Assembly (NCBI GenBank): GCA_010405405.1 | Contig: MU004230.1 | Span: 1,881,744 to 1,945,743 of the forward strand | Reading direction: 5' to 3' | Length of the DNA: 64,000 nt | Origin: Microthyrium microscopicum | Lineage: Eukaryota > Ascomycota > Dothideomycetes > Microthyriales > Microthyriaceae | Shown: positions 495 to 64,000 of the stretch, piece by piece | Layout of the letters: every line of letters begins with the position of its first letter | Position numbering within the stretch: the stretch's first letter is position 1 | Program-made: the position numbers and the translations under genes | Notes under the pieces: generated by a model | Seen by the model: only the letters and a program-made list of their open reading frames with translations | Databases searched by the model: none | Told to the model about the DNA's origin: nothing

Positions 495-3138
495 ATGGGA
501 AGAAATGAAGCTGATACTGGCTTGGCAGTCAGCCACGAGAAGGTGTCAACAGCTACCAAATTGGGCATATCAGCAGAGTCTTTCCAGCGTCGAGTGGTTG
601 TGGAAGGGGACGATCAACTGAACCATACTATCAAGAAGCGACATTTACAGATGATAGCGATTGGTGGCTCAATTGGATCTGGGTTATTTGTTGGATCAGG
701 TGGCGCTTTATCCAAGGGTGGACCTGCTTCCCTTGTACTTGGCTTCGCCATCATTGGTGTTTTGCTCTTCAACGTTGGTCCGTTCAATGTCTACCAAAGC
801 TGGCATCTTCCCATTGAGTATGATGTTTGCCATCTAGTAACGTTTTACATCGACTGTTCACCTTCCCATCGAGTGCGCAAAAGATCGAGCATCTTATCAC
901 ACTGGACGCGAAAGAAAACACTTGATGATGAATCGTTATAGATAGTAGACATCGCATTTAATGGAAGGGCAAGTTCTAATATAGATATGGGACTGTGCTA
1001 AACCCCATTCTAGTCTACGCTCTGGGCGAGATGGCGGTCTTGTTTCCCGTTGCCGGCAGTTTTTATACATATTCAGTACGATTCATTGACCCAGCTTGGG
1101 GCTTTGCTATGGGCTGGAACTATGTTTTTCAATGGTAAGATATCCCAAAGAACTCGATGGCTCCCATAGGATGTGATGGGATCTCATCACGAAATACTGA
1201 CAAAGATCTAGGGCGATCGTACTTCCCTTAGAACTGACCGTGGCTGCTCTAACTGTCGGCTTCTGGGGTACCAACGTCAACGTTGGAGTCTGGATCACAG
1301 TGTTCTTGGTGATTATAGTCGCTCTCAACGTGTTCGGTGTCCTTGGCTACGCTGAAGGAGAATTTTGGGCCTCAATTCTCAAACTCAGTGCAGTGGTCAT
1401 CTTCTTGGTTATCGCAACCGTTCTTGTATCTGGAGGAGCACCGCCTAACAATATGGGGAGATTCTGTTCTACGAATCCTAATATCACAAGCTGTTACCGA
1501 GAATACTGGGGCACCAGGAATTGGGTCAATCCAGGGCCATTCCGGAACGGCTTCCAAGGATTCTGCTCGGTCTTTGTCACTGCAGCTTTCGCCTACTCTG
1601 GAACAGAACTGGTAAGTTTTCCCCCAAATAATTATCTCATCTTCTTGGCGGAAAACCAATCCTGGAGTTCAGAGCTGAATGCTACGATATGTTATGGTAG
1701 CCATCGAATGCTATTGGAGCATCGAATACGTGACATTGTCGAACTAAACCGCGAAAAGTAAGACTGTTATGGTTTTTCCTCAACAGACCGCAACAAGATG
1801 TAATCTGATAAACTCGTTGGCTACCATGACACTCGATGGCTATCACATGATGCTAATCAAGAATGCTAATCAACATATTCCAGGTTGGACTCGCGGCGTC
1901 GGAATCAAAAAATCCAGCAAAATATCTGCCTGGCGCAGTCAAGCAAGTATTTTGGCGCATCATCCTATTCTATGTTCTTGCTCTTTTCTTTATCGGTTTG
2001 CTGGTTCGATCAGATGACGATCGGCTACTTGGTAGCGGAGGACTTATCGACGTCAATTCTTCTCCATTCGTCATCGTCGCGGTCAACGCAGGTCTGAAGG
2101 GCTTTGATTCGTTTATCAACGTGATCATATTGATCTCTGTTGTTTCGATAGGCATGTCAGGTGTATACGGCGGGTAATACTCCCTTGTGTTGAACCACAT
2201 ATCTGGAAGACACCTGATGGAAACGAAAATTACCATATTTCCCATCGCACTCCATGGCTACCATAGAATGCATTCTTAATCGAGTGCTATGGTTCCCACC
2301 GAATGCGATGGGTACTTACGGTTCGGGTCTATTCAGGCATGTAGGCTCTAATCGTGATCTTTATACTGACAAATTCCAGATCTCGTTGTCTGACTGCTCT
2401 TGCTGATCAGGGTTTCGCTCCAAAGCTATTTTCCTATGTCGACAAAGCAGGTCGACCTCTTCCTGCAACGGCTTTAATTCTAGCATTTGGCCTGTTAGCC
2501 TATGTCAACATAGCAGCTGCAGGTTCAGTCATCTTCGACTGGCTTTTGGCACTTAGTGGCCTCGCCACCCTCTTCACCTGGGGATCGATCTGCTGGGCTC
2601 ACATCCGTTTCCGAAAGGCTTGGAAGCTACAAGGTCATACTCTTGATGAGATTCCCTTCAGAGCTGCCTGGGGTGTCTACGGATCGTGGCTTGGCCTCAT
2701 CGTGATATTTTTCGTCCTCCTTGCTCAGGTATGTCAATCCCACAGTATACCCCTGATAAAGCAGAGTCGATGGCGGGCATCGGCATTGATGTGGCCAGGG
2801 CATTTATTTTGCTACTTGTTGAATTTGTCTGGATCTTTCGCCCTGAGACTAACTGATCGTAGTTCTACGTCGCTATTTCTCCAATCGTACTGCCAGGAAA
2901 ACCATCTCTGGCACCTCAAGAGCGAGCTCAAAGCTTCTTCAAGGCTTACTTAGCGCTTCCAGTAGTATTGCTATTCTACGTCTGTGGTTCGCTATGGAAA
3001 GGATCTCGCATAATGCGTGCTTCAGACATTGACATAGACACTGGTCGGAGAGTGGTTGACTGGGAAGTCATTAACAAAGAACGGCAACGTATAGCCAGTA
3101 TGGGCTTTGGGAAAAGACTATATCACAAGCTCTTCTAA
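495..3138 (+). CDS. amino acid permease (APC/YAT family), six exons
   Basis: Predicted plasma-membrane amino acid/proton symporter of 572 aa. Exons by splice sites and phase are 495-777, 1014-1134, 1212-1611, 1884-2173, 2380-2728 and 2863-3138, and all phases close. The N-terminus is soluble; the first span carries the family signature IAIGGSIGSGLFVGSGGAL, followed by VVYALGEMAVLFPV, SFYTYSVRFIDPAWGFAMGW and the SESKNPAKYLPGAVKQVFWR loop. About twelve hydrophobic spans and a soluble tail follow, which is the usual size and layout of fungal YAT permeases. Substrate cannot be assigned. The introns are odd: 236, 77, 272, 206 and 134 bp, each with inverted repeats or motifs related to a MITE found elsewhere in this window. 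The first donor, GTCCGT, is non-canonical after GT, but only this donor restores the conserved FNVVYALGEM. The exons show no stop or frameshift, so the gene looks functional. Confidence 0.88.
778..1013. repeat. permease intron 1 with imperfect inverted repeat
   Basis: The 236-bp intron holds two arms, 806-842 and 934-969, that are imperfect reverse complements over about 36 bp. A further short motif, cttcccatcgagtgcgc, lies in the loop. The arms share a cccat..gag core with the inverted repeats in the other introns of the same gene. Confidence 0.6.
1135..1211. repeat. permease intron 2 containing a MITE-identical 14-mer
   Basis: This 77-bp intron contains cgatggctcccata at 1155-1168. The identical 14-mer occurs in the MITE copy at 39062-39075. 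A weak stem, gatatccca/tgggatctc, flanks it. Confidence 0.55.
1612..1883. repeat. permease intron 3 with inverted repeat
   Basis: The 272-bp intron (donor GTAAGT, acceptor TTCCAG) carries an imperfect inverted repeat, about 1690-1722 against 1818-1850, built on the shared tagccatcga core. Relation to the MITE is weaker than for introns 2, 4 and 5. Confidence 0.5.
2174..2379. repeat. permease intron 4 with a MITE-half-like inverted repeat
   Basis: The 206-bp intron has arms 2232-2271 and 2281-2321 that pair over about 40 bp. The block 2241-2312 aligns along its length to the left half of the MITE at 54830-54890. Both carry ggctacca, a TTAAT/AATTAA centre, a gtgctatgg/gcgctttga segment and ttccca.cg in the same order. 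Confidence 0.6.
2729..2862. repeat. permease intron 5 with a MITE terminus-like end
   Basis: Positions 2787-2821 match the right terminal repeat of the MITE at about 54977-55013. Both begin ttgatg, share catttattttgc and end in gttg. The left half of the intron shows no clear MITE match, so this would be a decayed or internally deleted copy. Confidence 0.55.
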
Positions 3139-34555: not shown

Positions 34556-35539
34556 CAGAAGAAGTTTCCACTGACCCCTTCCTAAAGCCCCCCCTGCCAG
34601 AGGCCCCCCTTAAGCCTCTCCGCCACTCCTGCCGTTAGCACACACTAAGTTAAAAAGTGCCTTAGTGCCGCCACCAAATCTAATAATTGGCTAAGTATAG
34701 AAGCTAGGACACTTTGGCAAAACAAGGAAATTTGAGTATAAACCTAAGGCACTAGCGGCCCTTAAGGGACGCGTCTAGATACCAAACAAACCTGAAAATT
34801 AACGATAGCGACGTTAACAAAGCGCGTGCGCGTGAAGTAAGTATATGTAGGAGTAGGGAGCACTAGGGGATAGGATCTACGTAGGAATAGGTATAGGAAT
34901 AGGTAGGGAAATAGGCGTAGGAATAAGAGCTCAAAAGACGTAATTAAAGGTGTTAAAGATATTAAAGATATTAAAGATATTAAGCTACTAAAACACGTCT
35001 TAATTAAGATTTAAAGGGAGTAAAAGTGCTAAGCCTTGCCAAGCCTCTCTATAATTAGCTAAAATTACTTATTAATAAGATAGATTAGATTAGATTGCTA
35101 AGGCTTAGCACTAGTCCTTTACTAGAAGACGTATTTTAGTAGCTTAATATCTTTAACATCTTTAATATCTTCAACACCTTTAATTACGTCTTTTAAGCTC
35201 TTATTCCTGTGCCTATTCCTCTACCTATTCCTGTGCCTATTCCTATATAGATCCTATCCCCTAGTGCTCCCTACCCCTATATATACCTACTTTACGCACG
35301 CGCGCGCGCTTTGCTATCTTATAGTTTTTAAGTATTTTAGCTTTAAACGCGTCTTTTAAAGGGCTACCAACCCTTGCCTTAGGTTTGTTAGGCAATTCTG
35401 TCTTAAGCTTAGACCTATCATTAAATTGGGTGGCGGCGCTACCTGATTTAGTAACAGGTCTAAGCTCAAGCTAGTGGAGGGTAAAGGGGGGCCTCTGGCA
35501 GGGGGGGCCTAAGTAAGGGGTCAGTGGAAACTTCTTTTG
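34556..35539. mobile_element. 984-bp foldback element with long terminal inverted repeats, MULE-like
   Basis: The ends read cagaagaagtttcc and, on the other strand, caaaagaagtttcc. Pairing continues through tgacccctt and ccccccctgccagaggcc, then an acgcgtct/gacgcgtt block, a GCGC-rich block, several cctattcct-type blocks and gacgtaattaaaggtgtt, almost to the centre. The unpaired middle is only about 50-60 bp (near 35040-35097). A perfect 9-bp duplication, tcacacact, flanks it at 34547-34555 and 35540-35548. Nine-base duplications and very long inverted repeats fit a non-autonomous Mutator-like element; the family is inferred. No ORF is present. Confidence 0.85.
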
Positions 35540-38430: not shown

Positions 38431-41400
38431 GGATGTGTAGCAAAGTTAGAGTAGGAACCGTAATTCAGAATCCCATGCTGCTTATTCGGTTTTTGTTTGC
38501 TTTAAAGCCGGCCCAGGTTGTAATTAACTTCCATCTACCCCTCATCAAAAGGTCCTTTGACAATCCATACGACAGCATGAGCAGATTCAATAATGTGTTC
38601 GTACTTTTGCGTATGAGTGAGAAAGCCGATGCCGGATGGGAGACCCTTAGATTGAAATCAGGTACCATCTGCCGAGAAGATATAAGTGAGGCACATTACT
38701 CACGAGATAGAGTCATATTTGTTGGAACATAAAACCGATCTTTCGATGATCGAGATCTTGAATCCTTCTATGCCGGTGCCGAGCGCTAAAGAGCGAGGTA
38801 TACCGGGTACTACGTTGTAGGTGCAGCAATTTAATGTACCCCGTTGCCGGCATTCCGTAGAAAAGGAACCAAGTTTCAGTGTCACAGACTCACAGTAATA
38901 TGGAATATTGCTCTATACTTGTTAAAGAAATGGTATCAACAGAGTTTGGTAAAGCTTAAACATTGAAGCAAAATTCAAGGGTGTTTTGTGATTACTGCAT
39001 TGATGTTGCAAGTTCCCCGACCAAGGGGTTGACAAAATAAATGGCGGGTTCCTAGCGAGTGCGATGGCTCCCATACAAGACGATCGATCATCAAGTGCTT
39101 TATTTACCACCGACCGCGTTCAGACTTGGGCAGTTTATCGAAAGCGATGGGAAATATAACACCTTTTAATTAGCAGCGTTCGTGGGAGCCATCGACGCTG
39201 ATGGGAGAACGACAATTATTTTGTCATGCGGTTGCCCGACAATACTCTACGCTTTCGGAGGTTTCAGACCATGATTTCGCTCGCATCAAGATTTTGAGAA
39301 TAAAGATCATGAGAATGATGATATGCCGGCAATGAATTATGGCTCATACCACGAGAAGTGACAACAATCACACCGAGTGCTATACGGAGGAGCTCCTGCC
39401 GAGACCATTGTAGAAGGAACAAAAGTAGCTTCGATCAACTAAATCAACTCGGCTGCGCACAAATTGAACATAAATCTACTTGTACAGATGCACCGTTCTG
39501 AATGATCAAGTAGTGGTTGAAATCATGACGGCGTGTTGTTACAATATCCAATCGGTAACTTAAAGGTAGCCGCACCCCCGGAATGACAGCATGGGAGACA
39601 CGAAGTTTTCAGATGGCAATTTTGTTTTCCCATTGGAACACCGACCTTGATCAATCGATGACGTAGATCCTTGGCGGGGTTTCCGAGGCTCTCACGCTCG
39701 CTCTTTCGAAAGCTCAAAGTATTTTCTGGCAAAAATACTAACTAGACTTATATGAGAACTAGAAAGGAGCCAAGATAATCAGGAACGAGAAGACGGGTAG
39801 ATGATAGATCTCAGGGTCCTTTCCACCCATCTCAACGGTTATCTACACACCCATTATACTTTTCATAGTAACAAAAGATGCCGATCTGAGTGCACATCCC
39901 GATGCTCCACCAGCAAGAAGTCAGCAAGCGAACATAAGGGCTTTGGCCAGTGGCGGCGCAGACCCAGCAGTTCGCCAAGAAAAGACCGTGCACCATCTAC
40001 AAACTCTCTAAATCCTCCACGCGCATGCGACGCTAATGCGCGCCAGACGGTCCGTGCTCTTGTTATATGGCGAGGTTTTGGTCAAATTCGTGCAGATTTG
40101 ATATGCGCAAGCGCCTCTTCACCGACTTCTGAAAGAAACCTTTCCGATCCCCACGCTCATTTGCGATGCTCTCAATTATCTCGTCCAGTCGTCGAATATA
40201 AACGACCTATTCATCCAATCACTAAACAAGCTCACGATGGCTTTTTTGCATTTCTTCAAGCTCAACCCCAGAAGAGCCTCAGTCTTTCGACCACGGACCT
40301 GTAGCTCTATTCAGCTAAAGCTTCCAGATCACCTATCAGTTAGACCCAAAAGGCACAGCTGCCATCGAAAGATGGGGCAATAATCCAGGGGAATTGAGAT
40401 CTTGTGCCTGCCCAGGTTTTTCTCAACTCCTCCACTCTCATCACATCGTGGTTGAATTGTAGCTGAAGGTTGCACACCCAAGTACGCCACTGATGAGCCG
40501 GTTATCGCGGATTTATATTGCGATTGGTCCAAGTGGAAACCGTTGAAAGTTCCAATACCCGCCACAAACAATGTTTTCTTTCTGCAAACGGGTCGCTAAT
40601 TTACTCCCAATAAATTAGCGAACGCTTCTACCTGCCAGGAACGGTACTTTGCATCATTTTCCTCAAGTCAGAAAATTGTCTTCGTTTCATTGCTCATCAT
40701 TGGAGTATTATTGCATTCGAATCACAGCTGAAAAATAAATCAAAATGATTCGAATTGCTTCTTTATCAGTTCGTGGCAAAGCTGTTCCTTGAACAAATTG
40801 TTAGCTCTTGCATTTACAGCTGTGGCTTGTACTTCTGTATGCATAATAATCTACAAAGCGTCTATTTCTTCAGGGTGATACCGTATCTTATATCTCTGGG
40901 TATAATTCTGTACGCTGTGCAATCAAAGGCGGACATAGCATGCACTGAACCAGTGTAGTAAAATGCATATCAATACCGCATATGATGAGACTTACCTGTC
41001 TTTTAATATCTGATACCCTCCCATCTTGAGCCGCTAAATAAATCCTCGTCGATCTTACATTACAGCTCCAAAAACACCACCACATCTTGCACGTGTGGTC
41101 CTGATTGGCCTGTTCGAGCCTCTTATATGTTCAGTCAACTACGTACTGTTCAAATGGTACGTAAACTACTGAATACCTCTAACTACCAGAGGATCACTGA
41201 GCTGGCCCGTCTGGTATAAGCAGTCTTGATTAGTATACTAGTCGAACAAGGTGGTTTGACATCTCACCACCGGCTCTACCGGAACAGCTTTTGATCACAG
41301 CATACAGTTATGAGATGATATTGCCGCGCACACCATGATTGCAAATCTTCATGGATCAATGTAAACATGGTATTGCCTAGCAATTACTGACATTTACAAT

Positions 41401-43252: not shown

Positions 43253-44961
43253 CCTACATCGACGTTGTGGCGTGCCGCTAGTAATCCCTAGATCTACCGT
43301 TCTAATTTAAAAGCGGTTACTACTACCAAAATTTTGTAGGGTATAGCTAAAGGGCTATTATCTAAAGGGGCTTAATAATTATTATGAAGTACAGCATAAA
43401 TTATTACATATAAATTTAATTCTTAGTATTAGTATTACTAAATTTATAAATACTCTATAATCTTTTTCTCTAGATTAATATAATCCCCTTCTATTACTAC
43501 TAAATAATTTAGTTAGTTTTTATCTAATATAGTAATAAATTATATACTTATAATGCTTATAATATAGCCTAAAATAATGTTTATAAAGTAGAACTATATC
43601 TAGATATTTAATATAATGCCTAGTAGTAGTAAAAATATATCTATTTAGATAACTATTAGCTTATTACTAATAGTAATAGAAACATCTTCCTCTTCTACTA
43701 CCTAAAGTAAAAGGAATAAGAGTATATTAACTTATAGTGAGTTAAATAATAGGTAATTTAGATTTAGGATAAATGTTAACTTAAGCTCAGTAGTATCTTA
43801 TCTAGTTAACTTTAATTTTATAACTAAAATTAATGTATTTCTTACTAAATTCAATGCTATAGTCTTTAATTAGACCTTATATATATAAATTCTAAGCTAG
43901 AATTAATTAAAATTGTCTTATATTTAATAGATATTATTAATAATACTAATTCTAATTATTAGTATAGTTAAGTTATATCTTAAGCTCTACCTACTAAGCT
44001 ATAATGTAAGCATTTCTAATAGTTACATTAAGATTAAAAAACTATAGAGGAAACTATATTCTATTATTTAAAATAAATATATATTAGTATAGAATTTTAA
44101 GAGCTTTTTAACAGTACTATTTTTAAGAAATAATATTAAGATTTAAAGTCTATAAAAACTCTAATAGCGTTTTTAGTTTACTTACTTTAGTGGTAGACTA
44201 TATAGTAAGCTTAATGTTAGTCCGTAATATTAACTCTACCTATATAGAAATTATAATCTATAGCTACTATAGGCTATTTGAGATATTTATAAGATTTAGA
44301 ACCCTAAAGATAATTAATATTCTCTTTCTTATACTTTATTATCTTCTTTAGGATTATAGGTTTAGTTCAAATAGCTTTTTTAGTAATTCTAACACTATAA
44401 GATATAGTTAGGAAGTATATAAGAATATAATCTCGCTATACTAGAGATAGTATATCTTAAATAACTAACTTGTTAGTCTCTCTTTAAGGCTATTTATTAT
44501 TCTTCTTATTAAAAAAAGTATACTCTTTAGGGTATTCTTTCTAATTAGTATAAGTAGTACCTACTATAGTAATTCTATACTACTATAGGGCATTAAATAG
44601 GTATATAGACGTAAAGAAGTTATTATAAAAGATAATAAAGTTGTTTTGCTAAAGAGAAAGAGATAAGTATAATTAGATTACTACCTAAGCTATAAGGCTT
44701 AATTTAGTAAAGAATATAGGTATATCTCTAGGTGAACTCTAGCTTAACCTATAGGTAAGAATATTAATATTCTCTCTAGTTAATTAAAGAGATTTAGAGC
44801 GTGTAGTATAAAGCAGGTTGTAGACGTATCTATAATTATATAAAGTAAGTATTTTAAATCCTTTTAGGATTAGTTTACCCTTAATATAAATCGTGTTGCC
44901 TAATCTACCTATATATTTTACTATTATCTTATTAATTAAGATATAGGTCAACGGCGTAATA

Positions 44962-45190
44962 TGTAAGGATCTAATAGGCACGTAATTAAGCAAAGAGTAG
45001 ATAATATTTAACGATCTAGCGTACGAAGAGAGAGAGAGAGGTAGAGTAGAATCTATACTAAGGGAAGAAGAGGATAATGCTTGGAAGATCCTTAGGGACG
45101 CTAGTTCTAATTAGGACTAGCGCTGCTAGATCTTTGTGTAAGATCTAGCTTAATACTAAAGCTATTATGCTTTAGCAAGGAATCCTTATA
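44962..45190 (-). repeat. gypsy 3' LTR
   Basis: 229 bp, beginning tgtaaggatcta and ending aggaatccttata on the + strand, with short inverted ends. It matches the LTR at 52513-52741 over its full length, with differences mainly of the C/T and G/A type. Confidence 0.88.
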
Positions 45191-45242
45191 TTACTCCTTC
45201 TTCTAAAACTAGCGCTCTAAGTTACGTTCTAATCTATGCTAT

Positions 45243-45305
45243 TTTATTCTAGGCTAGGCTAGGCTAGTCTAGTTTAGTCTAGTCTAGTCTAATCTAATCT
45301 GCTCT
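45243..45305. repeat. ctagg/ctagt short tandem repeat
   Basis: A run of 5-bp units of the form ctag(g/t) and variants lies inside the gypsy element close to its 3' LTR. Ordinary low-complexity sequence. Confidence 0.6.
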
Positions 45306-48300
45306 ATATTTAATAAAATGCTATTTGCGCTCTTTTGCTATTCTACTATTCTCTAGCTTGCTAAGGTAACTGTCTAGGTATTAATAAACCTAGATATCCT
45401 TAGAATACTTTAGTTTATAGCGCTAATAAGGCGCTAATAGTAGCGTAATATAAATAAATAAATAAATACTTTTATTCCTCTAACTAGTTATCTAGTAAAC
45501 TATTACTATCATAGTTAGTAGAGTTAGATATATTAGGTCTAATAATAGGTAGTAACTACTTAGGGTTAGGGCTAGGCTTTGTAAGATTGTATTTATAGAA
45601 GTCGTAGATTAGGTTCGCTACGTTCTTAAGGTCTTTTTATAGTTACTATAAAGGTATATCGTAATTTATCTATTTTATAAGGTATTCTAACTTCTTACAG
45701 GTGTCCTTTTTATAGTGGCTATTAAGGATTTTATTAACTTACTACTCTTCTTCTTCTTATACTTTACTTACTACTACTAGTAGAGGGTTATATTAACGTA
45801 GAAGTTCTATATTGTTTATAATAGTATATAGTAGCTAAATGTAAAATATAAGGTATATCTTTATATACTTTAGTAGGTTAAGTTTAAATATAATAGCGTT
45901 AAGCTTCTTTAGGATATAGAATAGTTCTACGCTTTTATTATTAAGAGTTTTAAACGCGCGTATTATATAGTAGTTTTAAATATCTAGACGTACCTAGTCT
46001 TTAGGTTAAAGATCTAGTGCTACATATTAGTGCTTATTAGCTTATTTAGCTTATTATACTTATACCTATATTAGCTATTCTATAAGATAATTATATATAT
46101 TTTTATAGCCTTCCTATATCTTATTAGCGTCTTTTTATTCTTATTAAGCTAAAGAGGAGGAGTATTAGTACGGTGCTAGTGCTTAGTAAGCTAATTTAAG
46201 TCTAAATTTAGGGAGGAAGTTATATTAGATCTTAAAGAGAGTAAAGCTTATCATTATATTAATAGCAAAGTTAATAGTAAACTTTATAAATAGTAGTAAC
46301 TAGACTTAGTTATCCTAATTTTAGTTAATAAAAGTATAAAGATATTACTTAAGTATTAATATTAAGATTTCTATAATTCTATTAGTTTATAAGTACTATA
46401 TAGTACTTAGCTATAGTACTATACTTACTTAATTATATAATTATTTCTAAAACGCTAAAGTAAACTATAATCCTCTATCTAATAAGATTATATTTAGCTA
46501 TCCTATTAATTTCTAGACTTAATTTATAAATATAAGAACTATTATTTCTATAGAGAGGTTAGGTAGGGGGACAAAGCGTCATTAGTAGGTATATTAGTCT
46601 ATAATAATTATAACGTAACGAAAAGTAATACCTAAATAGATATATTAAGATAGAGAGATAGTAAAGTTAATTAAGATATCTAACTATGCTTACTTTAGTA
46701 AAGGGAAAGACTAAAGAAGTTCTTACTTCTTTTAGTAGATTAGTTTAGTAAAGATATATTTATATTTTAAGATGTACTTCTTTATATTTTGTAATATATA
46801 TAGCTACTAGTAATTTTGCTAGAGCTAGTAATAAGTAGTTATTAAGCCTTTATAATCTATAACTTTATAGTAGTAGGTATATATTATAGCGTGATAATAA
46901 AGCTTGTCTTTAGATATTAGAATACGTTAGTAATAAAGGACTAGACCCTTTACTAAGATTATATAGTTACTAAGCTTAATGTCTTATTATTCTAGGATGC
47001 TAAAAGGAAGATATAATAATCCTTCTTGCTTAGTATAGTAAATAGTATTTAGCAACGCATCGTCTTTACCTACTTCTATTATTTCTATTAGAAACTAATT
47101 GACGTTAAAATTTAGGGATTTGTTAAGCTCTAAGAAGTTGCCCTTAGGCGCGTTCTTAGGCTGGTTTTTATTACTAAGGTTTACTATTATAGGGTTCTTT
47201 AATAACTCTTTTGTTTTGGTAGGAAAATCTAACTTATTTGTAATAATAGTAGTAATCTATATAAGAGATAACGTAATAGGTTTAACTAGTAGGCGTGCTA
47301 TCTTAATTATATACGTAGTATTAAATTAGTAGAGAAAAAGTAGAGAGTATACTTAGTGCTAAATATATAAATTATTATTATTCTAGGGGAGATCTTAAGA
47401 GTACTAAGTTAGTATATTTGCTTTTTTATTAGCTAGTCTAGGATAATATATAATCTTAAAGTAGAACTATAATAGAAATTCTGCTTAGCGTGCTTAATAG
47501 TGTAAAAGCTTTTTAGTAATTATAAACGTCTATAGATTTTGATAGTTAAAGAATACTTTAATAAGATTGTTAGTAGAGAATAGCTCTAGTTCTTATTTCT
47601 TAAAAGCGTATATAATTATAAGAAGCTTTTTGTTATAAATATTATAGTTATACTTAGCTAGAGATATCTTCTTTAATAGGAACGCTATAGGATATAGATC
47701 TTTATTATTATTTTTTTAAGATAATACTTCTACGTATACTTAGTTTAACGTGTTAGTTTTAAGCTAGGTTTCCTTAGTATAGTTAAAGTGTTTTAGAATA
47801 GGTGCTATTATAAACGCCTTTTTTAGTTTATTAAATGCTTAGTCTTTAGGACCTTTAATATCTTATAGGAAGATAGTTACGATGTCCTTCTTTATTAAAG
47901 CTATAAGAGGTATAGCAATTTCTAAGTATCCTTATATAAAATAATAATAGAAGTTAGTAAAACTTAGGAAAGCTTAGATATCTTTTATATATAATAGTTA
48001 TTTCTATTCTAGTACTAATTCTACCTTTATTAGATCTATCTTAATACTTTTTATAGTAATAATTAGCTCTAGATATTTTACTTTTATAGTAGTAAACTTT
48101 AATTTATAGATATTAAGATATAGACTAGCTTTTTCTAGTTTGTTAAGTACTAAGTATATATAAGTTATATGTTCTTTATATATCTTACTAAAAATAAGAA
48201 TGTCGTCTATATAGACTATAGTAAAGTTGTTAAGATACTCTATTAGTATATAGTTAATATATACTTAAAAGGTACTTAGAGTGCTTATTAACCTAAAGAG

Positions 48301-51300
48301 TATAATAATAAACTTATAGAGACTATATTATATAAAGAAGGCTATTTTGTGCTTATCCTTAGGTTTAATTTATATCCGCTCGTAGGCTATAATGACGTTA
48401 AATTTATTATAGTATTGTACTTAATATAGCTTTGCTAAAGTATTAGAAAGTAATAGTAGTATGTTTTTGTTTTTATAAGAGATTTTATTAAGACCTTAAT
48501 AATTAATATAGACTTAAATACTTTTACTAGGTTTATATACGTATAATATTAGTACTATAAAGTATAATTTAGAAAGGCGTATAAAGCCTTTCTCTAATAG
48601 ACTTTCTAGATACTATTTAATAATAATATTCTATTTTAGGTTTATGCTAGTATTATATTATTTAGGTATAGTAACGTTTAGTATAAAATTAATAGAATAA
48701 TTAAAACTTAGGTAGTAGGGTAGTAATTTATTTACTTTTTATAGGTTAAAGACTTTAAGATAGTAGTAAAACTCTTTTAGGATTATCTTATAAAGTTCTT
48801 TGTAAGTAAGATAAGGTTGTTTATACTTTTCTTACTACTTCTTAAAGTCGTGCTTTAAGATAGCGAATAGGTTAATCACTACGTTATTTATAAAGAAGAT
48901 TAGGTTTAATATTCTTAAAAGATTAAATAGTTTTAGTTCTTTTATTAAAGGGCTCTTTAGTAAAGGGCTATCTAGTAGCTTCTTTTCTTTAGGCTTAGTA
49001 AAGTTCTTAGGATAGAGAACTTCTACTTTCTATCCTTTTTATTTTACTAATATTATTATAATACGTATAAATATAACTACTACTTTTTTATCTTTAAGAA
49101 GTTTTATAACGAAATTATATTAACTATAAGTATTAACTTTAATAGGGCGGTGTATTAAAATATAGTTATAAAAGTAATAATAAGAGTTAAATATAATAGT
49201 CTTTTCTTTTCCTCTTAGGTATACTTTATAAAGTTAGATCTAAGGGTTACTAAGAATAAGGTTATAAGTAGCTACCTTTATAATGAAGTAATATATTTAT
49301 TTAATATAACTTTTAATGCGTATAGTAACTAGTATAGCTTTATTGATTTTAATAATAGTTTTCTTATTTATAAGCTTTACTAAGCGTAGTTAATTAAGCT
49401 ATATTTTTGATATATTATGCTATTTAATAAAGTAAGTATAGATAATTCTAAGTGCGTTACTACTAGTATTAATTAGAATGTTATATTTCTTAAAGGCGTT
49501 AGCCTTTAGAATTAATATGTCTTTAACTATTGTCTATTATAGCCTTATAAAAGGTATATAGTTAACGTTATTTAGTAGTAGCTATTCTGAATTAATTACT
49601 ATTATGAATAGTTAAATAATATAATATACTTCTAGTAGTGGATTTAGGTTAGCTTGCTAAGCTTCTAGCTTTTAAATCCTATTTTAAATTTAGCCTAACT
49701 TATGCTTTTTTTACTAATTATATACTTCTTGTAGATTTAGCTCTTTCTTGCGTTAGTAAGGTAGAGCATTTAGTTTAAATACTTGCGTAAGTACGTATTA
49801 AGTATTTCTACTTATAAAGCGTTCGTAATAGTAGTAAGTATTGCTAAGACCTTTAGTTAGATTTCGTTATTTATTAAGTGAGTCTTTTATTTATAGGGAG
49901 CATCCTTTTGTTTTAAAGTGTAACCTTTCTTACTATACTTAGGGCATTTATTTTATGCTTATAAGGCTAGAAAGATATTATTAGAGCGGCGTAGACGTTT
50001 ATTACTATTCTAATTATTGTTATTATAGGCGCCTCTATTCTAGTTCTCTAAATTGTTAGTTAAGTTATTATTGTTAGCGCTATTACTATTAGAGTTATTA
50101 GTATTAGAATTATTATCGTTATTTTACTTTAGGAAGTTTAGGTCTTACTTTACGTCGTATAGATATATATAGAGTTTTGGGTAGGTTTTAATATTACGTC
50201 TTATTAAAAGATAAATAAATTATCTTAGAAGAAGTAAGCGTAGTTTTATAACTTTATTGTAATCCTCTAGATCTGTATCTTTAGTCTTCTCTAAAAAGTA
50301 GCTTAAGAATTTTATTAGGTTTTTTATAGTCTTTATCTTAGTATCTGCTAAATAGAGCTATTACTTTGTAATATTATATTTATTAATTACTTTGTTATAA
50401 GTATCTAGGTCTTTTTATATATTATTAATAGTAAGGTAAGGGCTTATAGAGTTGTAGCCTAAGTGACGTAATATTAAAGACTATGCTAGATTATTTAGGT
50501 TATTGTAGATAAACTAAATCTTCTTTTTATTAGTTAGGTAAAACTAAGTATCTTCTTCTAGAACGTTTAATACCTAATCTTTCTATTAGTAGTATTTATT
50601 TTTATCCTTACTATTATATTATTTAACTATATAATGAGATTAGCTAATATGTAGAGTAGTATTATTTAAGGGGTTAGACTCTACTTTTAAGAAAGGTAAT
50701 ATAAAACGCGTTTGTATTAGATTAGGTTAAGTAGCTATAAGTTAATATAGTATAATATTAAGTAATTTAGCGTCTTCTTTATCTCCTAAGCGTATAAAAG
50801 CTAGTATATTATAAGGTTTTATAAAGGTTAGAAGATTCTATATCTACTACTTTATAGTATAAAGATATTAAGTAAGGGATTCGTTTTTAATATTAAGATT
50901 TATAATAGTAGTATTCTAAAGTTGTATTTGCTTACAATATTCTTAGAGTCGTTTTATATAATATACTAACTTTACTTCTATAGAAGTAGTATAGTTTTCT
51001 ATTGCTTAGATATTATGCTATAATTAATAATAATTAGAGGTAAGTTTATAGTAATTAATTATACTAATCTAAAGTTCTTTAACTTTTAAGAAGAGCTTAT
51101 CTACTTCTGTCTTATAGTTAACTATAGAGCCTTTTAGGTTATTTACCTTATTTATAAGATTTTAGATCTCTTCTAAGGACTTAGTATTTTGGATATTGCT
51201 CTTTTGTAATTTATTATAGTAAAATTAGTAGCGTACTACTATAGCTTAGTTTATAGCTAAAGTAGCGTAAAGCTAATTAAATAAGAGCTAAGGGTCTTTT

Positions 51301-52512
51301 TAAGTAATTTCTTGCTTTAGCTCTTAAGCGTTATAAATTAGATAGTAATCTTTAAATACCCTAGTAGTAGGATTAGGTTCTTAATAATAGAATAGTAATA
51401 ATAGGTTTAAGGGACCTTTTAGTATAGCTACCTTTAGATCTTTATAGGCTTATATTTAAAGAGAGCCTTAGAAGACTTAGAAGAATATAATACGTACTGT
51501 ATTATTAACTATTAGGTAGTTGTTTTAGAAAGCTAGAGGAACCTCTTTACAACTATTATTCTTAAGCTATATGTCTTATAACTAGACTAATATAGTAAGA
51601 TAGATTCCTTTAAATATCTTTTCTTCTTTTATATTTTGTATATTCTTATAGAAAGCTAAAGAGGTTACTAGAGTAACTAGTTCTACTAAGAGTATAGTAA
51701 ATACTATAGTTTTAATTAGTTATAAGAGTTTACTACTAGGCGTATACTAAATAGGTAATAGGATTAGCTTCTAGTTTACTTATCCTTAGGTTAATAAATT
51801 AAAGAGTAAGAGGTTATTATCTTTATTAGAATTAATATAAGATAGCTAGCGCTTACTCTTTTCTTATTAAGAAGTCTAAATAGTAGCTTAAGTAGATTCT
51901 TACGTATTTACTACTATTTTCTTTATAAATAAGCCTTTAGGACCTTAATCCTAATAGTGGCTAATAACTAATGTATAGTAGCTATAAGAGGGGCCTAGAA
52001 CTATGTTATCTTAGCGTTCTAGAGATACGAACTATGATTAAGAGCAAGTAGTCACGTTAAGGCTTAGAGGCGTTAAGGGAAGAAACTCTTTAAGAGGGTT
52101 TATAGTTTCGTTAGGTAGTTACGTAGGGGTAATAACGAGTAATAATAATTAGATAATTTCTTAATTACTAGGGATAGATAGTTGATAGATTAAGGGTAAT
52201 TAGAATGTAGATTAGTAATATAGAGAGAGGTAGAAGGGCAAAGGTTCTATATAGCTAAGTAGAGGGGTTCTAAGAGCTTAGACTACTATAAAATCTAAGT
52301 GTTTATATTAAACACCTTATAAAGACAATTAATTAGTGTTTTAGAAAGTAGTAAAAATATACTACCTAATCGTATTAAGGAGTTTATAAGTAAGAACGCG
52401 CGTAAGCTATCTCTTAAGTATAAGTTTTAAAATCTAGGAGCGCTAATCCCTAAGGATAAATACGTAAATAATTTTAAAGTTAATTTTTAGTTTTAATAGG
52501 TATGCTAGATTA

Positions 52513-52741
52513 TGTAAGGATCTAATGAGCACGTAATTAAGCAAAGGGTAGATAATATTTAACGATTTAGCGTATAAAGGAAGAGAGAGAAGTAGAGTAG
52601 AATTTACGCTAAGGAAAGAAAAGAGTAATGCTTAGAAGATCCTTAGGGACGCTAGTCTTAATTAGGACTAGCGCCGCTAGATCTTTATATAAGATCTAGC
52701 TTAATACTAAAGCCATTATGCTTTAGCAAGGAATCCTTATA
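52513..52741 (-). repeat. gypsy 5' LTR
   Basis: 229-bp copy of the left LTR. It is followed by the second taata duplication at 52742-52746. In the element's own orientation this is the upstream, promoter-bearing LTR. Confidence 0.88.
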
Positions 52742-54005
52742 TAATATAAAGCTTAAAGCGTATTTATAGAGTAGAGGATAAGGATTTAATTTTAGTAAAA
52801 ATAGGCTTTTTTTAATAGGTCTATAATAGCGTAGGCGATAGTAATATTATTAAAGTTCTAGTAGTAGTATCTATAATAGGAATAGTAGATATATAAAGAT
52901 ATCTTTTAATATACTAAAACTTACGCTATAAAAGGAACTAGCTAATAGAATAATAGGGATTAACTTTATCTTAAAGCTATAGGTTATCTATATTACTAAT
53001 TCTATAAGTACTTAAATAGATGTAGATTCTATAGAATATTTTAATCTTATTAATACTAATTAATATAGGAATGCTTTCTTTAGGTGTAGTATAGTAGTAT
53101 AATTAATAATTAAGGGTATTCTTATAAATAATTTTAAAGTCCTCTTGTTTCTAAAATAGGCTAAAGAATAGTAATAGCATATTAAATCTTATTATATAGT
53201 CGTTAGGGCTAATAGGTATTAAGTACGCAACTAAAGGTACTATATTATAGAATCTAGCACCTAATTCTATAATATTTTAAGAAGGAATAGTTGCTATTAG
53301 ATTAAAGAAGTCTATAGGTAGGTTAATTAATATTTTAATATAATTTAGTAATAGTAATAAGACGTAGTACTTACTAGGATATTTATAGATTACTACTTTT
53401 AACTTATTGTTACCTTTATAGCGCGCGTTAAGTAAGTTACAATGTTTAGGATCTCTATAATTAGGCTTGTAGGTATAAAAGAAGTTAAGATTAGCGTTAT
53501 CTAATAGTACTAATAGTTTATTTAATTCGTCCTTTTTAGGATCTAAAAAGGTATCTATTATATTCTTCTAATCTTAAGTAATAACCTTAAAGTCTCTATC
53601 TTCTAATTAGTCTTTAGCCTAAGTTTTTATAATATCTAGAAGATTTAGTAATTTTAGTATAATTAGCTAGTAGTAGAAGTATAAAGGGAAGATCTAGGCT
53701 AAATGTAGGCTATAGAATAGGATCTAGAAGGTTAAGATCTTAAAAAATAGGCGGATTTAGTTACTAAAGTACTATAATACTAAAACTTATCTAAAATATT
53801 TAATATTCTATATCCTATATCTCTAAGATAAGACCTATCTAATAAATATAAATTTATATAGGGCAAGATATTAGGGGTTAAGAACTAATTAAAAGACGCC
53901 TTAGATTTAAAGTTTATAATTCTCTCGTAACTCTACTAATTAGGCCCTTTTAGGTAAGGAACCCACATACTACTATAACGTCAATTTCTAGTGCGGATAG
54001 GTTAA

Positions 54006-55435
54006 GGGATAATGAGCTGCTAAGCTGCAAGTAGATATAATCAATTGAGTAATAGGAGTGCTGATCTGGGGAAGAACTAGAAGAGGTGGATATGGTTCTT
54101 CTCATGGATTCGAATAACTTCAAGGATGATTGTGGAGGAGAGGAAAATCCACATGAATTAAACGAACTCGTTAATAATTGACCACGCCACTGATGTGGAT
54201 CGTTGATTTCGATGCCTACCTAACCTATCATGCCCATCCAGTATAACAATCGAGAAAATGTACCTACCAAGAAATTCAAGGTGCTTGGCGGAGCTAGATT
54301 AACCCAGGGATAATAAGGTATGTTGTGCATCATGGAAACTTTATACTGAGTGAATCATACGAGAATGGATTGACTTTTCATTAAGTCTCCTGGAGTCCTG
54401 ACCACTAGGTGAGACTGATTTGTTGCATAGCATGATATGATTGAACTAGAAGAAACAGTTGTTCTAGAAGAAATGTACTACCAATAATGGATTGAATATA
54501 TCTTCTGTGCGGTAGGCTGGCTGTAGAATGATGTATGTAAATTGGATTGGTTCCCAGCGAAGCGGGGTCAGTTGGCAAAGCGTTGTAGTTCACGCTTTTC
54601 ACATGCAGATATTCCACATGAGAGATAATCAATGCGGCGGTTAGTGGTTGTCGGAAGAAGGAGCGTGGCCAATCGACTTTGGAATGTCAAACGATGGAAA
54701 CGATCAACGAATTTAGGATGATGGATCGATATGACGTTGGAGAAATCGAGACTCTATGGCCCAACAAAAATACTTCTTGCATTTGTGATCTGATCTCCGC
54801 CAACGGCATGGCAAAATAAATGGCGTACTCCCATCAATTCTGATGGCTACCACCAGCGCTGCTAATTAAAAGGCGCTTTGATTCCCATCGTATCTGATAA
54901 ATGCTCCCAATCTGAACGCCCTTTTTGGCAAATAAAGCACTCGATAACAAACCGTAGCCTCTGGGCGCCATCAGAGTTGATGGGAGTACGCCATTTATTT
55001 TGCCATGCCGTTGTCCGCGTCCCAGAATTTGTTCATATCTTGATATCAACGTATGTGACTAATAGCTTATGTGATGAGCTAGTGTGTATTGATGCCTGAC
55101 AATTTACATATGTACGAAGCTCATCGCACCCCTGCCATTTGACTTTGGCCAGAGCTCATGACTTCTATCACCGCAGAGGCATGAACAGAAGTTGACGAGC
55201 TCGACATATTGACCTTGGACGTGTACAGAGCCGTCGCGTAACTCCAATCTACTTCATAAATCGCAAAAGACACATCAGGTTCTATCATAGCATAACCTCC
55301 ATAATTACACCTGGTCATTTCCGCTCTCTCCGCTTTATCTCACGGCGTCAGAGGATTCTTAATCTCACAATCTCGTGTTGCGACACTTCTCTCTTCTCTC
55401 CCCTCCTCCTCATTTCAATATCGTCCACAGACCCC
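54006..55435. other. intergenic region with MITE copy B
   Basis: Normal base composition resumes here after the nested transposon. Apart from the MITE at 54801-55013 no feature was found. The last few hundred bases are the promoter of the BolA gene. Confidence 0.4.
54801..55013. mobile_element. MITE copy B, 213 bp, well preserved
   Basis: Terminal inverted repeats of about 48 bp start caacggcatggcaaaataa and pair almost perfectly with the other end, with one mismatch before the GATGGC block. A 5-bp duplication, tccgc, flanks it (54796-54800 and 55014-55018). There is no ORF. The near-identical termini suggest a younger insertion than copy A. Confidence 0.92.
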
Positions 55436-58870: not shown

Positions 58871-60107
58871 AGTGAGGTTCCTGTAGAAACGCCCCTAGTA
58901 GTAATTTACTACTAATCCATTTTTATAACTATAAACCCTGTAATCCTGTTCAACTTCATATTATCTTAAATAAGGAATTCCAATATTAAAACAGGCATAT
59001 TTAAAGCTTAAGATATTAAGAACTAGACGATATAGAATTATATATAGGTATATAAATTAAAGCGCTCTTTTTGATATTAATATTACTTAGTCGTTACTAA
59101 TAATTTTCTTAACTCTACTAGATTTGCTATAGGTTAAGAATACTGCCTAATTTAACGCTAAACGACCAATATTATAAGTCTTATTACTAATAGAATATTG
59201 CTATTAGATGTCCTATCTTAACATTTTAAGTAGGTTCTAGAGTGGGATCGTAGGCCTATTTAGGAAGCTATTAATGCTAGTCTTTAAGTATCTATTTTAG
59301 TAACCTAAGAGCATCCTACTATATAAAATAGGTAGGATTTAACTCTTTAAGTTTGCTATAGGATTCAATTTAGGGGGGGGCATTGGATAGCAGTATTAGA
59401 TACTAATTCTAAAGGGGAAGAGGTTATAGATTTAGAGGGAGAACAGGCTAAGGTATAATAAATAGCTAAGATATCTATAGCGGTATAAGAATAGGTAAAT
59501 TTTATAGTAGGACGTCTATCATCCCTATGAAGGACGTTATAAATCTATTATCTTCGTCTAAATTAATATTAGTAGCGTTATCTTTAATATTAACATCTTT
59601 AGTATCTCTAGTATTAACTTTAGATGTTAGAATCTTATCTTCATTATAATATTCCTTACCGTTATTATTACTAACATTAGATACGTATACTTTAGGATTA
59701 TTAACCTTCTCTTAAAGATCGTCCTATTTAGCGATAGTATCTTTAATAGATTCTAGCTTTACTAAATACTAGTTTAAAAGGTCTAGTAGTTGTAGTAAAT
59801 CTTTAATACTAATGTTATAATGCTTATTAGTAATAGTAGTATTTAACTAATTATTTAATCCTATAGCAATAAAGGAGCGCCTAATAACTTTAGTATTATA
59901 AGTATATATTTAATTCTACGCCTATTCTATAATATACGTTATAAATATGCAATATTAAGATATTATCTATTCTAGAGGCTCTATAGATTTTATATTAAGG
60001 AAGTCTTTAAAGCATTCCTATTAGTAGAATGTAGGGGCCTATATATCTTACAATTCCTTAACTATTTGTTTAAAGAGCTTGTTTATGCTAATATTAAGTA
60101 GTTAGAT
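58871..60107. repeat. AT-rich, RIP-decayed repeat of unknown family
   Basis: From about 58.9 kb the composition changes abruptly to TA-rich sequence poor in CpA and TpG, full of stops in all frames. It is the target into which the copia element at 60108 inserted. I could not place it in a family. Confidence 0.55.
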
Positions 60108-60433
60108 TGTAAGAACAGGAATACAAGTAGCGCCATTATAAAGGTATAGAAAGGATATAATTAGACTAGTATTAACTAGCATGTTATATTATATACTAAA
60201 TAATCGTGTATAGAATCTCTAAAGCCTCTAGAATTAGGGGGAATTCTAGGGCATTAAATACACCTAAGGGAATAAAGATTATCTTAGCCTTTGTTAGTAA
60301 TCTTTAAAGATCTAATAAAGATCTTTAATTAGATTACAAAGATCTTTAATTAGATAACAAAGACTATAAAGAACTAATAGCCAAATAGGTTAGTTCTGAA
60401 AGAATACTAGTATTAAATCTAGTTATTCTTACA
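60108..60433 (-). repeat. copia 3' LTR
   Basis: 326 bp with inverted ends tgtaagaa...ttcttaca. A purine tract (aagggagcg on the minus strand) abuts its right end at 60434-60442, as expected for a 3' LTR of a minus-strand element. The left flank, tagat (60103-60107), would be one copy of the target duplication; its partner is outside the window. Confidence 0.82.
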
Positions 60434-61496
60434 CGCTCCCTTAATATTTATTCCATTAGAATTTAATTTATTTAAGGTGTTTTTCAACTATAGTTAGACC
60501 TACTAACTATATTTTCTTATAATCTAGTATTTTAGATTATATTATAACTAATAATATAGTTATATTTTAACTTTTCTAATAAGTTAATTTAGTAAGTAGA
60601 TTTCTTACTTTTTTTATTATTTCTAGCTTTTTAGCTATTATTTATCTTCCAACTCCTAGATTAGGTGCTAGGTAATTAAATATAATAGAATTTAATCCTT
60701 TAGTAAATATATCTGCTAGCTAATTCTTAGTATTAATATAATTTAATACTACTATTTTATTTTGTACGTTTTCTCTTACAAAGTAATATTATATATCTAT
60801 ATATTTAGATCTAGCGTGGTGTTCTAGATTATTAGCTAGTTCTATAGTAGATTTACTATCTATAAATATATTAACAGATTTATATTTAATTACGTTAATT
60901 TCATTAAGTAATTCTTTTAGAAACATTAGTTCTTTAACTATTTCTTTTAAAGCAATATATTCTACTTCGCAGCTAGATAATACTACAGATTTCTGTAGTT
61001 TACTAAACCAACTAATTACGTTATTTCCTAATTTAAATACGTAACCAGTAGTAGATCGTCTAGAATCTAAATCACCCCCCCAATCTAAGTCTAAGAATCC
61101 TATTAGTTCTATATTAGATTAAGTTATTTTACACTAGTTACTAGCTATATAAACTAGTTTATAATCTTTAGTGTAATTTAGATATTTCCACACTTTATCT
61201 AATAATTTAAAGTATTCTTCTAAGGAATTAGCCATAAATCTAGCGCAAAAACTAACAGAATATGCTATATCTAGCCTTGTTTTAGTAGTTAAATAAATCA
61301 GCGCTCCTACCTATTGCTAGTATAGTTTTAGATTAATTAAATTAATATTTTTATCGCTATTTTTTCTACTTTTAACACCTAGTTCTACAAGTATAGAACA
61401 GGGCTTTAAATCCTCTTTATTAAACCATTTAATAATATTATTTAAATATTTTTCTTAGCTTAATTCTAGTATTCTTCTAGATCTATCTCTTTTAAT

Positions 61497-61700
61497 TTAA
61501 ATTCCTAAGAATATATTTACATCGCCTAAATTAGTTACTTTTAGGTCTAAACGTAATTCAGTATAAAGATTATTAATATCTTTTAAACTTAGGCTAAATA
61601 CTAATATATCGTCCACGTAAACAAGAATTATAATATTAGACTCCACATTCTTATATAAGCACAGCGAGATTAATTTAAATCCATACTTATTTAATACCAT
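61497..61700 (-). pseudogene. copia reverse transcriptase fragment
   Basis: Longest intact stretch of the RT region, 67 codons. It contains YVDDILVFS, the copia form of the catalytic YxDD box, and the conserved LGDVNIFLGI. It is bounded by stop codons from RIP. Confidence 0.88.
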
Positions 61701-62912
61701 AGTTAGATAATTAAGCCATAGTCTAGAAGACTATTTTAAGCCATATAGTACTTTATTTAGCTTACATACTTTATTTTTAGTATTTTCTATTATAAATCCA
61801 ATTAGTTATTCTAGATAAATATCTTTATCTATTTCAGCGTGAATAAATACGTTTTTAATATCCCATTACTATATTTCTAGATCTAGTAAATTACTTATAG
61901 AAAATAACATTCTATAAGCTTCTACTCTACACGTAGATATAAAGGTTTCATCGTAATCTAAACCTAGTTCTTATATAAATCCTTTTACTACCCATCTAGC
62001 TTTATATTTAACTAGATTATTAAGAGCGTCTATTTTAATTTTATACACCCAGCGGCCTCTAAGAACCTTTAAATCTATAGAATTATCTACTAAATTCCAG
62101 GTCTTTTATAGTTCTAATTCGTCTACTTCAGCTTTCATAGCTTCTAACCATTTATTTTTATCTAAGCTTTTAATAGCTTAATTATATATTTTAGGTTCTT
62201 TATTTAGCAGATTACTTTCTATTATAATAAATACGTTATCTTCTTCTAAATTAGCTAAATCCAGGGTTATATTATTATTAATAGCAAGTTTATTAATTAT
62301 AATGCTAGCTGTTTTAACTTAATTTTCTAAGTTATCTATTTTAATAACGTCAATTTAATCAATATTATTTTCTACTACTTTATTCTTTATAATAAAATCT
62401 ATTAGCTCCTTCTTTTTATAGTTTTCTATATCGTAAAGTTCTTATTTATAGTATTTATTTTCAAATATAACTAAATCTCTAACCCATTGAGTAGATTTAG
62501 ATTTAATATCATAGATTTTAAATATATTAGTACCTAGGCCAACTAGAATTCCAAGTTTCGCCTTAGAATCTAGCTTTTTTAAACCTATACTTTTATCTTT
62601 ATATAAAACTATAGATCCAAAGATCTTTAATTAATCTAATTTTAGTTTTATATTATATTTACACTCATAGGGTATCTTATTATCTAGGCTACTATTTAGC
62701 GTTCTATTATAAATATAAACAGCTATTAGAGCAGCTTCTCCCCAAAAGGTTTTAGGTAGATTACTCTCTTTTAACATTATATTTATTTTAGCAACAATTA
62801 TATAGTTATAAATTTCTATTATACCATTTTGTTCGTATATATAAAGAGTACTATATTCTTATCTAACGCCTTCCTCTTTTAGAAAGTTATTAAGCTTTCT
62901 ATTTTTAAATTC

Positions 62913-63329
62913 TCAACCTTCGTCAGATTTAAAAACAATTAATCTTCGTTTATTATTACTATTATTATAATAGTATTCATTTTTAACTAAACGTTTTATT
63001 TCTACTATATTAGGATATATTTCATCCTTAGTACGTAGTAGACGTATTTCTAGATATCTAGTAGCAACGTCTATAGCTAGTAGAATATAACAAAAACCAT
63101 TAAAAGTAGTTAGATTTATAGGGCCACATAAATCAGCTACTATCTTATCTAAGAAGTATTTTGGTTTCTCTATTATATCTTTATTTTTACGATTAGTTAT
63201 TTTACTTTTAATACATATATCGCATTTACTAGAATCAAATTTACCTAGATTTGTAACAGCTATTAATTTAGCTTTATATAATAGATATAATTTTCTACTA
63301 GAAGCATATCCTAGTCTTTTATACCACAC
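62913..63329 (-). pseudogene. copia integrase fragment
   Basis: 138-codon open stretch with a degenerate HHCC zinc finger (both His codons changed to Tyr, CDIC cysteines kept) followed by the first part of the DDE integrase core (KIVADLCGPI...LLAIDVATRY). The frame is broken on both sides. Confidence 0.85.
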
Positions 63330-64000
63330 TAAGGCAGATAGCGTTACTAGCTTTTTAGCTTTCTTTTTATTATTATTACTTATAATAGAAGTAGCTATTC
63401 TAGAAATAAAACAGTTCTCTACATCTAATTTAAGTAGGTATAAGTTATTAACTTTAAGAGCTATTATAATAAGCTTTTTATCTTTATAAATTAGAGCTAT
63501 ATTATCTTTAAATTCTATAGTAAAATTAGAAGATAACTTACTTATAGAAATTAAATTAACGCCTAGATCAAGACAATATAAACAGTCTTTTAATTTAAAT
63601 AATATTCCACTAAGTCTAACTACTATATCTCCAATTCCAGTAGCTATAATAGTGCCTACCTTACCCCAATTAATAGGAATATTACATAGTTTAAAACAAT
63701 GAAACCATGTCTTATCTACTATTAAATAAGAACTAGCCCCTAAATCTAATATAAAATTAGTAGGTTTACTTATAGTAGAAAGTAATAATACGTACGCTTA
63801 TTCTTCAGTATCTAAGTAATCTATAACATCTTCGTAAGCGCCTAGTATCTCAGGCTAAACAGTATTAGATTCTTCGCTTTTAGTACTTTTATTATCTAGA
63901 TCTAGATCAAAGTCTAGCTCTATTAGTAAATCTAGGTTAGAACTAGTAGTAACTAGTACCTAGTCTTCTATTCTAGCTCAAACGAGCTTAGTAGATTTAG

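Follow-up and report, generated by a model that had tools for sequence, protein, structure and literature searches.

We have analyzed the five predicted introns of an amino-acid permease gene in a 64,000-nucleotide stretch of the Microthyrium microscopicum genome (this whole stretch is referred to as the window), together with related sequences in the rest of the genome. Genome searches covered 36.9 Mb in 20 contigs. A superfamily of 213-bp MITEs with terminal inverted repeats (TIRs) has probably been a source of introns in this genome, in two ways. In one of these a single MITE inserted in a gene would provide most or all of an intron, as in permease intron 1 and in a 203-bp intron of a second gene, at locus L052. 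In the other, half a MITE, taken from its terminus inwards, would have become the hairpin core of a composite introner-like element (ILE). The composite element would then have spread to many genes, giving intron 4 of the permease and probably intron 3.

The coordinates of these features are presented in Table 1. After in silico splicing of its six exons, the permease gene (window 495-3138) has an intact ORF of 572 amino acids, and the product matches the AA_permease domain with an E-value of 3.6e-142. The intron lengths of this rebuilt gene model are exactly those given by a first-pass annotation made from the window sequence. All five lengths are 2 modulo 3, and introns 1 to 5 contain 3, 1, 3, 5 and 0 in-frame stops, respectively. 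A search of viral_contigs with a piece of the permease found no match. Elsewhere in the window, AT-rich blocks at 44001-54000 and 60000-64000 have 23-28% GC and strong RIP-like dinucleotide marks; in the 44-54 kb block TpA/ApT is 1.72 and (CpA+TpG)/(ApC+GpT) is 0.22. Together with the ILEs, these marks fit a filamentous ascomycete. A large inverted repeat at 34556-35539, partly of low complexity, consists of 180-nt arms (90% complementary) within 63-nt arms.

Table 1. Positions of the permease exons and predicted introns, the MITEs of the window and the predicted introns of the second gene.
Feature	Located in	Positions	Strand	Length and remarks
Permease exons	window	495-777, 1014-1134, 1212-1611, 1884-2173, 2380-2728, 2863-3138	+	
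Permease intron 1	window	778-1013	+	236 bp; putative decayed MITE A over about 781-994
Permease intron 2	window	1135-1211	+	77 bp; MITE/ILE-like fragment at 1136-1180
Permease intron 3	window	1612-1883	+	272 bp; probably rearranged ILE
Permease intron 4	window	2174-2379	+	206 bp; ILE end to end; half-MITE core about 2211-2323
Permease intron 5	window	2729-2862	+	134 bp; putative decayed MITE end, about 2741-2821
MITE subfamily A copy	window	39022-39234	+	213 bp; CCCGAC on each flank
MITE subfamily B copy	window	54801-55013	-	213 bp; TCCGC on each flank
ILE intron	L052	1408-1634	-	
MITE intron	L052	902-1104	-	203 bp, GTAAGA...TCTCAG; 50.4 bits to MITE B

The two MITEs of the window represent two related 213-bp subfamilies, A and B, which have terminal inverted repeats and no coding capacity. 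A first look at the genome gave 165 candidates for MITE A and 219 for MITE B. A 20-mer from the MITE B terminus occurs 96 + 90 times in the genome with at most 2 mismatches, and its reversed control does not occur. Target duplications were counted in 43 distinct copies with unambiguous ends: an exact duplication of 5 bp is present in 20 of them and one of 6 bp in 13, and the remaining 10 have none. The element is self-complementary over nearly its whole length, and the MITE B hairpin folds with a z-score of -12.9. The termini, CAAGG/CAACG, would presumably fit the hAT superfamily. Membership of that superfamily is defined by a hAT transposase in the autonomous partner and by 8-bp target duplications, whereas those of the MITEs in this genome are 5-6 bp. 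Most copies lie outside coding sequence, as frames over rejoined insertion points have a median of 19 codons, compared with 30 at random nearby points. Two of 67 joins gave open frames of at least 60 codons (L068 and L075), and these were dropped since the frames did not look protein-like on reading.

When introns 1, 3 and 5 were used as single queries in genome searches they matched only themselves (the queries for introns 3 and 5 were misplaced by a single base at one end or at both), and profiles were therefore needed. Profiles were built from 29 copies of MITE A, 28 copies of MITE B and the 17 full ILE copies among the hits in 30 loci, omitting the MITEs of the window (L001 and L063), a partial MITE (L022) and intron 4 (L031). 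At E-values up to 10, the ILE profile matched introns 2, 3 and 4 and the two MITEs in the 64-kb window and nothing else; the MITE A and B profiles matched only the two MITEs and introns 1, 2, 4 and 5. The best window scores of introns 1 to 5 were 28.4, 19.3, 19.2, 149.4 and 12.0 bits, and the chance maxima in 200 windows shuffled in 2-kb blocks were 9.5 (ILE), 9.5 (MITE A) and 14.0 bits (MITE B). The weakest match is that of intron 5, whose window score 1 of 200 shuffled windows also reached. Scored alone, the introns gave 28.3 (MITE A), 18.0 (ILE), 19.2 (ILE), 149.4 (ILE) and 11.7 bits (MITE B), and each had a score in at least one of the three models that none of 1000 shuffles of the same intron reached. 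The ILE model did no better on introns 1 and 5 than on their own shuffles, the MITE B model found no match in introns 2 and 3, and the MITE A model gave 2.3 bits on intron 3, a score reached by 8 of 1000 shuffles.

The first-pass annotation had proposed that a single MITE family supplied or invaded these introns, and had named alignment scores no better than those of shuffled introns as evidence that would count against this. The MITE similarity of the introns lies above both shuffled windows and the introns' own shuffles. Common ancestry of the permease introns with the TIR MITE of the window is favoured by these tests and by the second gene at L052. The part of the proposal that does not stand is a single family acting in a single way: there are two related subfamilies, a dispersed ILE family includes intron 4 and probably intron 3, and intron 1 resembles a nearly whole MITE.

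Judged by its sequence, intron 1 is a decayed MITE from nearly one end to the other. The MITE A profile matches it at 798-970, over profile positions 25-196 of 213. Global alignment to the whole MITE gives 124/203 and 127/200 identical bases in the two orientations (61-63% identity), which score alike because the MITE is self-complementary. The intron RNA is predicted to fold into a single hairpin of 212 nt at 782-993, close to the length of the MITE, and the ends of this hairpin agree with the MITE ends that had been extrapolated beforehand (781-994). About 3 nt on the donor side and 19 nt on the acceptor side lie outside the MITE. The donor, GTCCGT, is weak, and none better that keeps the conserved protein was seen by eye. 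No target duplication was recognised by eye at the ends of this MITE, which at 61-63% identity are ambiguous by a few bases.

The other introns contain shorter matches. Introns 2 and 5 appear to hold MITE-like fragments, of either the ILE or the MITE kind. The fragment in intron 2 scores 19.3 bits with the ILE profile and 10.5 bits with the MITE A profile, and a 14-mer reported earlier as common to this intron and MITE A (39062-39075) is indeed present. Intron 5 matches the MITE B profile at 2759-2814 (12.0 bits) with 72% identity over 53 nt, in keeping with its earlier description as resembling a MITE terminus. Intron 3 has two matches to the ILE core, at 1689-1726 on the - strand and 1807-1858 on the + strand (19.2 and 18.9 bits), and its 5' end, GTAAGTTTTCCCC, is ILE-like by eye; it is probably a rearranged ILE. 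The inverted repeats that had been reported in introns 1, 3 and 4 correspond to folds with z-scores of -4.6, -4.3 and -4.3, and there is no excess of folding in introns 2 and 5 (z 0.2 and 1.7).

The second gene, on the - strand of L052, has UNC-93 and MFS matches, and its frame of 536 codons opens once two predicted introns, an ILE and the 203-bp intron, are removed. The 203-bp intron aligns with the MITE from end to end and is a second case beside permease intron 1. Its two ends fall short of the extrapolated MITE ends by 3 and 6 nt, and it is identical to MITE A (reverse complement) at 139/186 positions and to MITE B at 140/201. Since the true join is no more open than one of the two shifted joins, the frame by itself does not settle the matter. 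The match to UNC-93 (residues 76-437 of 508) spans the joint at about residue 421. Loci L074, L027 and L046 were considered as further MITE introns; they are weaker candidates and were not counted.

Intron 4 is an ILE and a member of a dispersed family. A genome search with this intron (the query was placed one base too far to the right) found at least 39 other places with E-values from 1e-26 to 7e-12, the best 40 of 61 candidates having been scored. The 32-mer core occurs 33 times in the genome with at most 3 mismatches, and the reversed control not at all. The common plan, about 220 bp long, begins with GTAAGATTTCCCCGTG at the 5' end and continues with a palindromic core, a second hairpin, TACTAAC and CAG. 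The ~37-bp 5' arm includes the donor, the middle ~112 bp correspond to a half-MITE, and the ~73-bp 3' arm contains the second hairpin, branch site and acceptor; ILEs thus bring their own donor and acceptor. Intron 4 matches the ILE profile end to end, and its core bears out an earlier remark that it resembles half of the MITE. GT and AG are found near the extrapolated ends in a set of 43 distinct full copies that includes intron 4; a G precedes the donor in 37 and follows the acceptor in 27. The insertion sites are AG|G, in open frames. At the boundaries of these 43 copies there is no excess of target duplications (the best offset lies elsewhere, p 0.04), and the end arms are by eye not inverted repeats of each other. 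When the ILE is removed, the frame is longer than that at either shifted join in 18 of 26 rows; in 11 rows it extends for 60 codons or more on each side. Two of the 8 rows that fail this frame test are one place in overlapping loci.

The fold of intron 4 was not equalled by any of 200 shuffles. RNAalifold found no consensus structure in an alignment of 28 ILE copies, and the pairs of the core hairpin do not covary in these copies, with pairing at 81.9% compared with 82.2% for shuffled partners. Because of these two results, an RNA function or a maintained hairpin in the resident copies is not supported; the core hairpin may have mattered in the founder ILE. A search for ILE arms without the core found no contiguous match to the joined arms among the best 40 of 44 candidates, which were scored. 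A 145-bp ILE in a paralogue of the permease (L116, C7:383550-383725) lacks exactly the core hairpin, positions 52-128, and we read this as a deletion.

ILEs also tend to cluster. Two or more ILE hits are found in 9 of 29 ILE loci of about 3 kb (L032, L035, L040, L041, L051, L054, L055, L059 and L060), and ILE loci have 16 extra ILE hits in about 87 kb, compared with 9 such hits for MITE loci in about 180 kb; a number of these hits are one place counted again or pieces of one ILE. A permease gene with several ILE or MITE introns fits this clustering. At L060:1205-1638 and L107:52-469 two ILEs are joined head to tail exactly at AG|GT, with no exon between them.

Paralogues of the permease were compared within the same genome, with intron offsets estimated by eye. 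Two uninterrupted matches, over residues 130-570 and 60-131, show that the closest paralogue has no introns at permease sites 1, 3, 4 and 5; near site 2, about 15 nt away, it carries an intron of 49 nt. In two other paralogues, introns are found at distances of about 11 and 21 nt from sites 1 and 3, and the core-less ILE of the C7 paralogue lies some 10-20 nt from site 4. By eye, these introns are near the permease positions and not at them.

The core of the ILE is homologous to half a MITE, from the terminus inwards. With the MITE A profile all 17 ILEs score 8.9-28.5 bits, while 850 shuffled ILEs reach at most 3.9. Conversely, 39 of 57 MITE copies reach 10 bits with the ILE profile, and 1140 shuffled MITEs at most 3.6. 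The MITE B profile matches 11 of the 17 ILEs, 10 of them above all shuffles. In the best ILE-MITE pair (the MITE of L074), ILE positions 39-150 correspond to MITE positions 212-101. A tree of half-units contains three groups: MITE left halves, MITE right halves, and 67 of 68 ILE cores together with intron 4. The one remaining core groups with the MITEs and may be a MITE itself. When the tree is rooted at its midpoint, intron 1 is placed on the side of the MITEs (support 0.95). The tree does not place the ILE cores inside a MITE group and gives no order of origin.

MITEs have target duplications, whereas ILEs lack them and are inserted at AG|G, and therefore the two have probably spread in different ways. 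We infer that transposition carried MITE sequence into introns, in intron 1 and at L052 directly, and that the predicted introns are spliced as modelled. The composite ILE would have entered AG|G sites, leaving no target duplications; its spread would most likely have been RNA-based, for example through reverse splicing, and would not have used the MITE transposase. The resemblance could in principle have arisen without common descent, if both elements merely had a short palindromic motif, CCCATCG...CGATGGG, in common. This motif is a near-palindrome and by eye is repeated inside both elements, but the matches are collinear over 70 to 210 bp and far above dinucleotide shuffles, and the 64-kb window has no other matches; convergence is very improbable.

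Two other histories accept the homology. Ordinary introns may have been older and later enlarged by MITE or ILE insertion. Insertion into an existing element does occur, for the ILE at L016:1383-1803 contains a MITE B copy (1504-1716) with the duplication AGCGC. The MITE part leaves about 53 nt of intron 5 and about 35 nt of intron 2 uncovered, and a short intron may have been there first in the case of intron 5 and perhaps of intron 2; for these two, an existing intron that was invaded is as plausible as an intron that arose from a MITE. However, the few nucleotides outside the MITE in intron 1, and almost none in the L052 intron, are too little for a pre-existing intron, given the minimum size of introns, and ILEs carry their own donor and acceptor. 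As a general account we consider such secondary invasion unlikely. It is less likely still that the direction was the reverse, with the ILE core arising first and becoming a MITE by inverted duplication and acquisition of mobility through a transposase. The self-complementary MITE is what inverted duplication of a half-unit would produce, and the order is left unresolved by the half-unit tree, but the genome has introns that are as long as a MITE and contain both of its halves (intron 1 and L052), and the ILE half begins at the MITE terminus, which is defined by the transposase. MITE copies reach 94-98% identity (best 40 of each subfamily scored) and ILE copies at most 91%, over partial matches among those scored, a difference that says only which moved last. 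We retain the direction from MITE to intron as the more probable one.

The ILEs described here resemble those of other Dothideomycetes (van der Burgt 2012, via PMC4457414 and PMC3443670), as far as the available parts of these sources describe them: they have their own splice sites, occur in unrelated genes, have a stable predicted fold and no target duplication, and are inserted near intron positions of relatives (here paralogues). According to PMC4457414, ILEs have been gained close to places where other species have introns, and an RNA intermediate was proposed in PMC3443670. The known Dothideomycetes ILEs are described there as not canonical transposable elements, whereas the core found here has a homologue in the same genome, a TIR MITE that makes target duplications. 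In the part of PMC9860276 available, introners of algae and other protists are, as is proposed here, introns from non-autonomous DNA transposons; TSDs, TIRs or both are reported in 59.2% of 130 introner families, the ascomycete families being an outlier with none. Those introners have TSDs and/or TIRs as introns, whereas here these marks are found on the MITEs, and the ILEs have no TSD and only half the element. The symmetrical stwintrons of Hypoxylaceae (PMC8469720) are likewise ascomycete introns that proliferate, carry long inverted repeats and lack target duplications, and reverse splicing is favoured for such elements in that source. They differ in being nested twin introns of another fungal class, and the accessible portion of the source mentions no related MITE. 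A link between an ascomycete introner and a MITE was not found in the accessible parts of the open-licence literature, which is weak evidence of novelty.

The origin of new spliceosomal introns is an open question, and outside the ascomycetes most introner families bear the marks of DNA transposons. A MITE that makes target duplications, introns of MITE length and a half-MITE introner in one genome would supply both the donor and intermediate stages, and their coexistence makes the question testable by comparison of near relatives. It is quite possible, if somewhat short of probable, that ascomycete introners in general are domesticated pieces of DNA transposons, in which introns made of MITEs were followed by a half-MITE composite, spread by the transposase gave way to spread by the spliceosome, and the TIR and TSD were lost. 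If this is true, the missing TIR/TSD signature of ascomycete introners would reflect loss and not a separate origin.
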